The notes beneath the pieces were generated by a model, which searched no databases, was not told the DNA's origin, and was given only the letters and a program-made list of their open reading frames with translations. This document shows positions 11,898 to 33,225 of a DNA stretch of 33,682 nucleotides, piece by piece (position 1 is the first letter of the stretch; every line of letters starts with the position of its first letter). The position numbers were made by a program, and so were the translations under genes. The DNA is from Verrucomicrobiales bacterium (GTDB lineage: Bacteria; Verrucomicrobiota; Verrucomicrobiia; Limisphaerales; SXTU01), in the NCBI GenBank assembly GCA_005791875.1, contig SXTU01000038.1, positions 1 to 33,682 on the forward strand. The letters are read 5' to 3'.

Positions 11898-12374
11898 TTT
11901 AACCACGGATGGACACGGATGGACACGGATTCAAAACCCGACTTGCATTACCCGGAGAATGCCAAGCTGCTGCTCAAGGAAGAGACGCATCAGATTCTTG
12001 GGTGTGCGTTTGAGGTGCTGAACGAGGTTGGCCACGGCCTGCACGAGAAGATTTACGAGAACGCGATGGTCGTGGAGTTCAAGCTGCGGGGAATCCCCTG
12101 CGACCAGCAGAAGCGGTATCCGGTGTTGTTCAAGGGTGTTCTCGTTGGCGAATACGTCCCGGACTTGATTGCCTACGATTTGGTCATCGTGGATGCCAAG
12201 ACGATTGACCGCATCACCGACCACGAGCGTGGCAAGATGATAAACTACCTTCGCAAGTCGAAGCTCCGCATCGGCCTGATTCTGAACTTGAAGCACGCAC
12301 GCCTGGAGTGGGAGCGCATCGTCGTTTGAGTTTTTGCTTTATCCGTGTCCATCCGTGTCCATCCGTGGTTAAAC
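11898..12374. mobile_element. Candidate repeat-bounded unit: 33-bp perfect inverted repeats flanking a GxxExxY gene
   Basis: Left TTTAACCACGGATGGACACGGATGGACACGGAT (11898-11930); right ATCCGTGTCCATCCGTGTCCATCCGTGGTTAAA (12342-12374) is the exact reverse complement, 33/33. Confidence 0.7.
11919..12329 (+). CDS. GxxExxY protein (TIGR04256-like)
   Basis: MDTDSKPDLHYPENAKLLLKEETHQILGCAFEVLNEVGHGLHEKIYENAMVVEFKLRGI...VGEYVPDLIAYDLVIVDAKTIDRITDHERGKMINYLRKSKLRIGLILNLKHARLEWERIVV; GLHEKIY is GxxExxY. Confidence 0.92.
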   Translation: MDTDSKPDLHYPENAKLLLKEETHQILGCAFEVLNEVGHGLHEKIYENAMVVEFKLRGIPCDQQKRYPVLFKGVLVGEYVPDLIAYDLVIVDAKTIDRITDHERGKMINYLRKSKLRIGLILNLKHARLEWERIVV

Positions 12375-12384
12375 CTCTTTTGAC

Positions 12385-15231
12385 ATGACCGAGATTTCCA
12401 AAGCCTACGAGCCGCAGTCCGTGCAGGACAAATGGTATGACTTCTGGGTGAAGCAGGGCTGCTTCACCGCTGACGCCGCGCGCGTCACCGACGAGCGCCC
12501 GGCCTACTCCATCGTCATCCCGCCGCCGAACGTCACCGGCATGCTCCACATGGGGCACGTGCTCAACAACACCATCCAGGACATCCTCGCCCGCAAGGCG
12601 CGGATGGACGGCAAGGAAGTTCTCTGGCTGCCCGGCACCGATCACGCGGGCATCGCCACGCAGGTGCAGGTGGAGAAGGCATTGAAGAAAGAGGAGCGCC
12701 TGACCAAATACGATCTCGGTCGCGAGAATTTTTTGGAGCGCGTCTGGTCGTGGAAAGAAAAGCACGGCGGCATCATCATCAACCAACTCAAGAAGCTCGG
12801 CTGCTCGTGCGACTGGACGCGTGAGCGGTTCACGATGGATCCGGAGTATTCGCGCTGCGTGCAGAAGGTGTTCGTGGAGCTTTACAAGAAGGGCCTCATT
12901 TATCGCGGCAAGCGAATGGTGAACTGGTGCCCCGCCTCGCAGACCGCGCTCTCCGACGAGGAAGTCGAAATGAAGTCGCAGAAGGGCTTCATGTATCACT
13001 TCAAGGTGGAGGCGGTGGAAGTGGATGGCTCACCGGCGAAGGGTGGCCCGCACCCCCTCACCCCGGCCCTCTCCCCCGAGCGGGGCGAGGGAGAAGACAG
13101 CGCGCAGACCTCGCCCGCAACGAATCCGCTCTCCCCCACCGGGGGAGAGGGTCAGGGTGAGGGGGCGGCGCGACCAAACGGCCCGATGACGGATTCAGAG
13201 GGTCGTGTTTGGCTCACCATCGCCACCACGCGGCCGGAGACGATCCCCGGCGACACCGCCGTGGCCGTGAACCCGAAGGACCCGCGTTACGCGCATCTCA
13301 TCGGTCAGCACATCGTGCGGCCGTTGCCCGCGGAATTGCCGCGCGCGCAGAAGCTCATCCCGATCATCGCCGATGACCATGTGGATTTCGAGTTCGGCAC
13401 CGGTGTGCTGAAGGTGACGCCCGCGCACGACAAGGCGGACTTCGAGATCGGAGCGCGCCACAAGCTGCCGGTCGTGGACATCATGAACGCGGACGGCACG
13501 ATGAACACCCTTGCGGGTGGGCCACTAGCCGGACTCGAGCGGTTTCAGGCTCGAAAAGTCGCCGTGGAGTTGCTGCGCGAACAGGGCGTGCTCATCGAAG
13601 AGAAGCCTTACGAGAACAACGTCGGTTTCAGCCAGCGCGCCGATGTGCCGATTGAGCCGCGCTTGAGCGAGCAATGGTTTCTGAAATACCCCGCCGTCGC
13701 GCAATCAAAGGCGAGCGTGGCCGAGGGGCAGATGAAGTTTTATCCCGACCGCTGGACGAAAGTTTACGACCACTGGCTGACGAACATTCAGGACTGGTGC
13801 ATCAGCCGGCAGCTTTGGTGGGGGCACCGCGTGCCGGTGTGGTATCGCGGCGGCGAAGTGCATTGCGGACTTGAAGCGCCGCAGGGCGAAGGGTGGCAGC
13901 AAGACCCCGATGTGCTCGACACGTGGTTCAGCTCGTGGCTGTGGCCGTTCGCCACGATGGGTTGGCCGGAGAAGACCGACACGCTGCGCAAGTTTTATCC
14001 AACCACCGACCTCGTCACCGGGCCGGACATCATCTTCGTCTGGGTCGCGCGCATGATCATGGCGGGCTACGAGTTCATGGACGAGCTGCCGTTCAAGAAC
14101 GTCTATTTCACCGGCATCATCCGCGACAAGCAGGGACGCAAGATGTCGAAGACGCTCGGCAATTCGCCCGATCCGCTCGTGCTCATCAGCCAATACGGCG
14201 CGGACGCCCTCCGCTTCGGCACCATGCGCAGCGCGCCGCTCGGTCAGGACGTGCTTTTCGACGAGAAGGACGTGGAGCTGGGCCGCAACTTCTGCAACAA
14301 GCTCTGGAACGCCTGCCGGTTCCGCCAGATGCAGGGCGGCGAAGTGCAGGGCGAAATCACCGCCGCGCTGCTCTCCAGCGACGACCGTTGGATTCTCCTC
14401 CGCCTCGACCTCGCCATCCGCGAGGTGAGCGACGCGCTGGCTAGCTACAACTTCGCCACCGCCGTGCAATCGCTCTACCGCTTCTTCTGGAGCGAGTATT
14501 GCGACTGGTATGTGGAGGCGAGCAAGGCCGCCTTCTTCGGCGAAGACGCGGCGCTCAAGGCGAACAAGGTCGCAGTAATTGATTTCGCCCTCTCGCACCT
14601 GCTGCGGATGTTCCACCCGCTGCTGCCCTTTATCACGGAGGAGCTTTGGCACGGGATGGGTTACTCGGCGGACATGCCGGAAGAGCAGGGCGGCCGGACC
14701 ATCATGTTCGCCCGCTGGCCCAAGCCGCTCTCCGACGACGAGAAGGAAGCGTGGGGCCTCGACGATACCGTGGAGACGTTTGCGAATGCGAAGTTCGAGC
14801 TCGTCACGCAGGGCCGCAACCTCAAGACGCAGTTCAACATCGGCGCGGGGAAGAAGGGCAAGTTCACCCTCAAGCCCGTCGGCCAGCTCGACTCACGCGA
14901 AGCCGAAGTGCTTCGCCTCCTCCTCAGTGCCGAGTCACTGGAACTTGACTCGAACTATGCGCCGAGGAAAGGCACCCCCACCGCGTTCACCAAGCTGGGC
15001 GAGCTTTACCTGCCGCTCGACGGCCTCGTGGACGTGGAGGCTGAGCGCGCGCGACTCACGAAGGAACTGGCAAAGATTCAGGCCGAGATTGAGAAGGTGG
15101 AGCAGAAGCTCGCCAACCCGAGCTTCGCGCAGAAAGTCCCGCCCGCCGTGCTAGACGAGCACAAGCAACGGCTCGCCGACTGGCATGTCAAACTGGCGCA
15201 GACGAAGGCGGCAATCGAGGCGCTGGGCTAA
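12385..15231 (+). CDS. valS: Valine-tRNA ligase
   Basis: PPPNVTGMLHMGHVLNNTIQD, WLPGTDHAGIATQ, CDWTRERFTMD, LTIATTRPETIPGDTAVAV, KMSKTLGNSPDPL; C-terminal coiled coil. Confidence 0.97.
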   Translation: MTEISKAYEPQSVQDKWYDFWVKQGCFTADAARVTDERPAYSIVIPPPNVTGMLHMGHVLNNTIQDILARKARMDGKEVLWLPGTDHAGIATQVQVEKALKKEERLTKYDLGRENFLERVWSWKEKHGGIIINQLKKLGCSCDWTRERFTMDPEYSRCVQKVFVELYKKGLIYRGKRMVNWCPASQTALSDEEVEMKSQKGFMYHFKVEAVEVDGSPAKGGPHPLTPALSPERGEGEDSAQTSPATNPLSPTGGEGQGEGAARPNGPMTDSEGRVWLTIATTRPETIPGDTAVAVNPKDPRYAHLIGQHIVRPLPAELPRAQKLIPIIADDHVDFEFGTGVLKVTPAHDKADFEIGARHKLPVVDIMNADGTMNTLAGGPLAGLERFQARKVAVELLREQGVLIEEKPYENNVGFSQRADVPIEPRLSEQWFLKYPAVAQSKASVAEGQMKFYPDRWTKVYDHWLTNIQDWCISRQLWWGHRVPVWYRGGEVHCGLEAPQGEGWQQDPDVLDTWFSSWLWPFATMGWPEKTDTLRKFYPTTDLVTGPDIIFVWVARMIMAGYEFMDELPFKNVYFTGIIRDKQGRKMSKTLGNSPDPLVLISQYGADALRFGTMRSAPLGQDVLFDEKDVELGRNFCNKLWNACRFRQMQGGEVQGEITAALLSSDDRWILLRLDLAIREVSDALASYNFATAVQSLYRFFWSEYCDWYVEASKAAFFGEDAALKANKVAVIDFALSHLLRMFHPLLPFITEELWHGMGYSADMPEEQGGRTIMFARWPKPLSDDEKEAWGLDDTVETFANAKFELVTQGRNLKTQFNIGAGKKGKFTLKPVGQLDSREAEVLRLLLSAESLELDSNYAPRKGTPTAFTKLGELYLPLDGLVDVEAERARLTKELAKIQAEIEKVEQKLANPSFAQKVPPAVLDEHKQRLADWHVKLAQTKAAIEALG
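13051..13170. repeat. PLTPALSP-type inverted repeat inserted in frame in valS
   Basis: Arms caccccctcaccccggccctctcccccgagcggggcgagggag and ctctcccccaccgggggagagggtcagggtgagggggcggcg are mutually inverted; encodes PHPLTPALSPERGEGED...NPLSPTGGEGQGEGA. Confidence 0.85.
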
Positions 15232-17756: not shown

Positions 17757-17832
17757 CTGTAGCGGCGGGTCTGTGACCGCCGTCAGCTAATTGTAGTCCC
17801 AGCAGGTCGGCGCTCACAGAGCGCCGCTACAG
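17757..17832. repeat. REP-like double-hairpin inverted repeat
   Basis: CTGTAGCGGCGGGTCTGTGACCGCCG (17757-17782) versus CGGCGCTCACAGAGCGCCGCTACAG (17808-17832), inverted. Confidence 0.8.
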
Positions 17833-20416: not shown

Positions 20417-20495
20417 GGTAGGGCGCGTCTGTCCCCAGCGCGACGGTTTGGCATACCTCCGCTGCAGCGGCGCGCTGGGACAGACGCGCCCTACC
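20417..20495. repeat. Inverted repeat, GGTAGGGCGCGTCTGTCC type
   Basis: GGTAGGGCGCGTCTGTCCCCAGCGCG (20417-20442) and CGCGCTGGGACAGACGCGCCCTACC (20471-20495); reverse complements except one extra C. Confidence 0.85.
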
Positions 20496-22292: not shown

Positions 22293-22381
22293 GTAATCAG
22301 TGTTTCAGTCTTCAGCGTTCAGTCAGAGGCGCGCTCGGGAAGACTGAACACTGATTACCGAACACTGAACACTGAATACTG
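22293..22381. repeat. Inverted repeat followed by degenerate GAACACT tandem repeats
   Basis: GTAATCAGTGTTTCAGTC (22293-22310) versus GACTGAACACTGATTAC (22342-22358), one indel; then cGAACACTGAACACTGAATACTg. Confidence 0.75.
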
Positions 22382-24909: not shown

Positions 24910-25185
24910 CGAAGTCGAGGCTGAAAGCCTCAGACATGACAGCCCGGGGCAACGCCCCGGGTAGCGGAATAGAAGGATCATAGCCCTGAAGGGGCGGAAC
25001 ATTATGTGTCGCCCTTTCAGGGCTTGGAATCTCCTTGCCGGGTTACCCAGCCACGGAATGCGCAGCCCTGTAAGGGCGATACAAAATGTTCCGCCCTTTC
25101 AGGGCGGCGATGCCTCTCTGTCCGGCACCCAGGGCGTTGCCCTAGGCTGGTATATGGCAGGCCTTCAGCCTGCGACTTGGACGCT
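24910..25185. repeat. Composite ~275-bp imperfect palindrome made of nested short palindromes
   Basis: Elements A (24918-24930 / ~25160-25171), B (24941-24962 / 25127-25148) and C (24983-25023 / 25065-25105) are mutually inverted around a common centre at ~25044; C arms match at 37/41. Confidence 0.85.
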
Positions 25186-33055: not shown

Positions 33056-33225
33056 CTCCCTCTCCCTCACCGGGAGAGAGGGCCGGGGTGAGGGGGCAAG
33101 TCGTCCAGAAGTGCGAAGTGCCAAGCACAAAGGAAACGCAGCCCAGCCAGATTTTGAATCCCAGTGCCCCGTTACTTCGCACGCCGCCCCCTCACCCTGC
33201 CCTCTCCCCCGATGGGGGAGAGGGT
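33056..33225. repeat. PLTPALSP-type inverted repeat between the two permease genes
   Basis: ctccctctccctcaccgggagagagggccggggtgagggggcaag (33056-33100) and ccgccccctcaccctgccctctcccccgatgggggagagggt (33184-33225); inner GTGCGAAGT/ACTTCGCAC. Confidence 0.85.

Follow-up and report, generated by a model that had tools for sequence, protein, structure and literature searches.

The mobility of intervening sequences (IVSs) has been a standing question since around 1990. The IVS of Coxiella 23S rRNA is 428 nt long, has a 28-bp terminal stem, contains an S23 ORF, is excised by RNase III and has been described as a selfish element (PMC4990558). Here we describe a unit of similar anatomy from a Verrucomicrobiales bacterium, in which inverted-repeat ends likewise surround one ORF within approximately 0.4–0.5 kb. 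The two compare closely in length (476 bp vs. 428 nt), in terminal repeats (33 bp vs. 28 bp) and in having a single internal ORF. However, the IVS ORF encodes S23 (PF05635), a four-helix bundle, whereas the ORF of our unit encodes a GxxExxY protein (PF13366, PD-(D/E)XK); the unit is IVS-like in anatomy, with a nuclease-like gene replacing S23.

The GxxExxY family is common in bacteria, and we know of no function assigned to it. Searches of the open-licence literature with GxxExxY, PF13366, TIGR04256 and the repeat sequences returned nothing relevant, and in the same literature we found no description of inverted repeats flanking these genes. The genome of Chrysochromulina parva virus contains one annotated GxxExxY protein (PMC12085832).

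A GxxExxY gene between inverted repeats

The DNA analysed, hereafter the window, comprises positions 1–33,682 of contig SXTU01000038.1 (assembly GCA_005791875.1). The unit lies between two genes that we take, from their translations, to be cimA and valS, and has the following features:

11898–11930, plus strand: left arm, TTTAACC-ACGGATGGAC-ACGGATGGAC-ACGGAT, three sub-repeats with a period of 10
12341–12373, minus strand: right arm, exact reverse complement of the left arm
11919–12329, plus strand: GxxExxY / PDDEXK_3 ORF of 136 aa (ORF call, profile matches)
11898–12373, no strand: whole cassette of 476 bp, arms plus ORF

The arms are complementary over 33/33 nt (100%), are spaced 410 nt apart and contain three CACGGAT-type units each, with a 10-bp period. 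A first-pass annotation of the locus had read perfect 33-bp inverted repeats with this period around the gene, and had correctly placed the left arm at 11898–11930 and the start codon (ATG 11919) within it, as confirmed by the ORF call. Some of its measurements required correction: the right arm lies one base before the 12342–12374 it gave, the repeat-bounded unit is 476 rather than 477 bp long, and the cassette, while starting just after the cimA-like ORF as described (ORF end 11896, cassette start 11898), ends 11 rather than 10 nt before the valS ATG (12385). RNA of the cassette is predicted to be closed by a terminal stem of approximately 32 bp (MFE −197 kcal/mol), and neither an intrinsic terminator or T-run nor an Rfam match was found at the unit. 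The 17-mer CACGGATGGACACGGAT occurs four times in the window at up to three mismatches, compared to 0.13 occurrences expected from shuffles.

Profile searches matched the ORF to TIGR04256 (GxxExxY; 117.6 bits, cut-off 35) and PF13366 (PDDEXK_3; 107.7 bits, cut-off 22), scores that mark the protein as a clear member of the family. Alignment with 47 relatives showed invariant residues E43, Y46, D82, K94, and N123, among which E43, D82, and K94 make up the conserved core of the PD-(D/E)XK superfamily. The AlphaFold2 model (pLDDT 90.9) has Cas4 SSO0001, LHK-Exo, and lambda exonuclease as its nearest PDB folds, none below E 0.001. From profile, core and model together, the protein is predicted to be PD-(D/E)XK nuclease-like, in agreement with the fold that the first-pass annotation had proposed to look for. 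Its closest relative differs by a dN of 0.06 and a dS of 0.99; the low dN relative to dS indicates that the protein is maintained by purifying selection.

PADLOC assigned no defence system to the window protein. The only match, at E 0.027 and to the second such protein of the same genome, was weak and was disregarded, and we rejected defence-system membership. Few family members are carried on plasmids (8 records). Four loci (L089, L093, L120, and L121) encode two GxxExxY domains per reading frame of 264–300 aa and lack a flanking inverted repeat; these are perhaps a domesticated subgroup.

The host genome is dense in inverted-repeat elements, and several others occur in the window. A gene-less hairpin at 22293–22358 (GTAATCAGTGTTTCAGTCTTC / GAAGACTGAACACTGATTAC) resembles the arms (CAGTGTTCAGTATTCAGTGG) around an S23 gene from the same genome (L270). 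Imperfect inverted repeats of a PLTPALSP-encoding kind lie at 13053–13165 and 33058–33224, one of them in frame inside valS; sister valS genes seemingly lack the greater part of it (gap of 196 vs. about 11–19 bp in some sisters). Other sequence families are represented by compact or nested inverted repeats at 17757–17832, 20417–20495, and 24912–25178.

Inverted repeats around GxxExxY and S23 genes

Bracketing was scored by aligning the 160 bp upstream of each gene to the reverse complement of the 160 bp downstream, with thresholds of an alignment score of at least 12 or, more strictly, at least 16. For the order-level set, 58 genomes of the window's order yielded 91 GxxExxY loci, with 87 genes scored. 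At the lower threshold, 77% of the 87 were bracketed, compared to 0.8% of 363 other ORFs at these loci and 7.3% when upstream and downstream flanks were mismatched; at the stricter one, the values were 65.5% for GxxExxY genes and 0% for control ORFs. Similar results were obtained across phyla, where 80% of 75 GxxExxY genes were bracketed compared to 1.3% of 452 control ORFs, in a set of 80 loci from many phyla that was drawn in one scan from a narrower alignment and is biased to GxGF-E-Y members. Since this set includes isolates (Roseibacillus L190, Verrucomicrobium L192, Marinobacter L205, and Geothrix L208), the bracketing is not an artefact of metagenome assembly. GxxExxY paralogues are patchily distributed, ranging from 0 to 10 per genome.

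Tandem structure is also widespread among the arms: for 97 arms of at least 24 nt, the best internal period was mostly 8–11 bp, with a mean autocorrelation of 0.63 compared to 0.41 for shuffled arms. An in-frame ATG lay within the left arm of 19/66 and 13/59 genes, and an in-frame stop separated arm and gene in 13/66 and 19/59. Given that the in-arm ATG occurs in a minority of genes, occlusion of the start codon by the hairpin, as suggested from the window alone, is not a shared feature of GxxExxY cassettes; we rejected the in-arm start as a general device and regard it as incidental. Separately, CACGAATTA units occur in longer tandem runs with 9-bp spacing in one genome (G051:C49:101-153, G051:C63:9-61, and 246-289), an expansion that suggests the number of sub-repeats may change by slippage.

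Arm sequence follows protein phylogeny. Within the order, arm similarity between genomes rose with protein identity (Mantel r 0.42; 0/2000 permutations), and across phyla the correlation was 0.54 (0/2000). The relationship holds even among the paralogues of one genome: when arms were shuffled only among same-genome paralogues, 0/2000 shuffles reached the observed value, with a maximum of 0.30. Co-inheritance of gene and arms could by itself yield such a correlation, and gene-less copies were therefore tested against the presence of the matching gene.

In the 4.7-Mb host draft genome, CACGGATGGACACGGAT had 62 matches at up to two mismatches compared to 1 for the reversed control; thus, the arm is not confined to the cimA–valS locus, a point that the first-pass annotation had raised for checking. 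The assembly contains only two PF13366 genes, the second of which, on contig C169, is bracketed by a different arm, GTTAGACACGGATTGCACGGATTAACACGGATT. Most other arm copies form short gene-less inverted pairs. These fall into three types, of which two correspond to the window and C169 cassettes and the third, CACAGAT, lacks a gene in the assembly; by eye, the loops seem unrelated rather than internal deletions. The host thus contains dispersed inverted doublets as REPINs do, with intergenic position confirmed at three junctions. At two loci (L008 and L140), a hairpin of another type sits within the loop of a hairpin, and the pair therefore appears to insert as a unit.

Copy numbers across genomes point in the same direction. 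Outside the gene, CACAGAG copies numbered 69, 45, 7, and 2 in the four genomes with the matching gene, compared to a mean of 2.2 and a median of 0 in the remaining genomes (p = 0.001). Copies were likewise commoner where the matching gene was present for CACGAATT (p = 0.02), with p = 0.07 for CACGAATG; for ACAGGATT across phyla, a raw p of 0.0002 became 0.006 or 0.04 after subtracting two or four own-arm matches. The combined p was 7e-5, for genomes that are related and drafts that are incomplete. This association, which weakens once own arms are subtracted, would support action of the gene in trans, if not strongly. The earlier idea that gene and repeat are tied together in a minimal repeat-bounded element is upheld by the pairing around most GxxExxY genes, the match of arm type to protein phylogeny, the gene-less copies and the different contents of the cimA–valS site in sister genomes.

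S23 genes showed the same arrangement: 83% of the 35 in the order were bracketed by inverted repeats, compared to 0.7% of 151 control ORFs, and their arms are also tandem short repeats, of other sequence. This bears on a model in which other machinery mobilises the hairpins, with GxxExxY and S23 genes carried as cargo or accessories. Such a model accommodates the occurrence of genes of an unrelated fold in cassettes of similar architecture, as well as repeat-rich genomes in which no GxxExxY gene was detected, such as the draft assembly G003, which contains 37 CACAGAG copies and no detected PF13366 gene. Yet the bracketed genes we met belong to two families, with other ORFs bracketed at a rate of about 1% or less; arm type corresponds to the protein; and purifying selection preserves the catalytic core, which would not be expected of expendable cargo. 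We consider the model fairly unlikely, while noting that S23 cassettes share the architecture with no nuclease, and a nuclease is hence not the sole mobiliser of the whole class.

Contents of the same junctions in sister genomes

The cimA end was present in 10/11 genomes of the genus. In all 7 sister genomes that keep the cimA–valS junction, the gap contained an inverted repeat, in most cases with no gene and of a different sequence type. The contents in the host and these sisters were:

GxxExxY cassette: G000 (host), G005, one G002 contig
Gene-less CACAGAT pair: G009, G004
CACGAAT inverted repeat: G001
CACAGAG inverted repeat: G003
CACGGAT-TGAA inverted repeat: G007
CGCGAA inverted repeat: the other G002 contig

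Between the two G002 contigs, identity is 96.4% in cimA and 97.4% in valS, yet the junction holds different contents, which indicates either a recent swap or a difference between two close populations. Similar turnover was observed elsewhere. The position upstream of cysD is occupied in the host by its second GxxExxY cassette, in G006 and G003 by gene-less pairs, and in G002, G010, G007, G005, and G004 by inverted-repeat cassettes holding a different ORF, which a PF05635 search identified in G002, G007, G005, and G004 as a member of the S23 / 23S-rRNA intervening-sequence family; S23 and GxxExxY cassettes therefore share this intergenic junction. The third junction has a gene-less pair in the host where G001 and G005 carry GxxExxY cassettes with CACGAAT arms. 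GxxExxY genes at the same site had dS values of 0.92 and 1.30, compared to 0.41–0.60 for cimA or valS in the same comparisons, a difference that fits independent arrival, although the gene is short and its codon bias may differ.

The first-pass annotation had proposed looking for an empty site and for target-site duplications. Neither was seen: no readable sister junction was empty at cimA–valS or upstream of cysD, none of the three junctions compared provided a perfect empty site, and an all-versus-all comparison of same-genus loci revealed insertions and swaps with no clean target-site duplication. The lack of empty junctions at these two sites, together with the strong predicted stems, would fit a model in which the hairpins are mRNA-processing or mRNA-stabilising structures between operon genes. 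Selection would then keep their position, gene conversion between the dispersed copies would renew their sequence, and GxxExxY would be a domesticated conversion enzyme. We regard such a host function as improbable, given that the nested hairpins, the presence and absence of hairpins at other junctions, and the patchy paralogues look parasitic, and that the unit has neither terminator T-run nor Rfam match.

Repeated occupation of the same sites, combined with a PD-(D/E)XK fold, could also be read as homing or addiction, with the nuclease attacking unit-less alleles, or the chromosome once the unit is lost. This is very improbable: the sites mostly hold gene-less or other-type hairpins, the unit has no antitoxin or methylase partner and its protein no PADLOC match, and the shared sequence is that of the arms, not the flanks.

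Proposed mechanism and relation to known systems

Taking these findings together, we judge it on balance probable that the unit is an IVS/REPIN-like minimal inverted-repeat element, with arms of approximately 33 bp built of tandem sub-repeats of approximately 10 bp and a single PD-(D/E)XK-like gene acting on its own arm type. In the mechanism we propose, the protein would recognise arms of its own type, as cruciform, hairpin, or tandem sites, and would cut there. Cutting would lead to the hairpin being copied or replaced at intergenic sites, which would mobilise both its own cassette and, in trans, gene-less hairpins. In function, such elements would resemble REPINs and their RAYT enzyme, and in appearance IVSs and their S23 ORF. 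Within operons, RNase III may cut the transcribed stem, so that insertions would stay cheap.

More tentatively, and with somewhat less than even confidence, we propose that bacteria widely carry a class of mobile element that has neither transposase nor recombinase: its only protein, a PD-(D/E)XK nuclease, would propagate both the inverted-repeat cassette encoding it and gene-less hairpins that share the arms. Along with S23/IVS cassettes, it would form part of a broader group of single-gene inverted-repeat elements that replace each other at the same intergenic sites. The occurrence of GxxExxY cassettes across many phyla, along with gene-less copies of their repeats dispersed in the same genomes, suggests that a minimal selfish DNA element of a hitherto undescribed kind is widespread. 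Should gene and arm prove to be functionally paired, each GxxExxY gene comes with a predicted DNA substrate, and the family could be taken directly to bench tests. Many short interspersed hairpins of Verrucomicrobiota, Planctomycetota, Chloroflexota, Bacteroidota, and other phyla would then share an origin and be linked to 23S rRNA intervening sequences.

Comparison with described systems places the cassettes between several of them. Whereas IVSs reside in helix 45 of 23S rRNA, GxxExxY cassettes lie between protein genes, as at cimA–valS, and their arms belong to another sequence class. The miniature inverted-repeat elements (MITEs) of insertion sequences are similar in that short non-autonomous elements exist alongside longer gene-bearing ones; however, GxxExxY elements have no transposase, the loops of their gene-less forms do not, by eye, look like internal deletions, and no target duplication was found for them. 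With the REPIN/RAYT system, they share dispersed intergenic inverted doublets, predicted hairpins, and a type-specific link to one resident enzyme gene (PMC3116915). They differ in that RAYT is an HUH tyrosine transposase rather than a PD-(D/E)XK protein (PMC3116915), and in that the GxxExxY gene lies inside its own repeat pair, between arms made of tandem units of approximately 10 bp.
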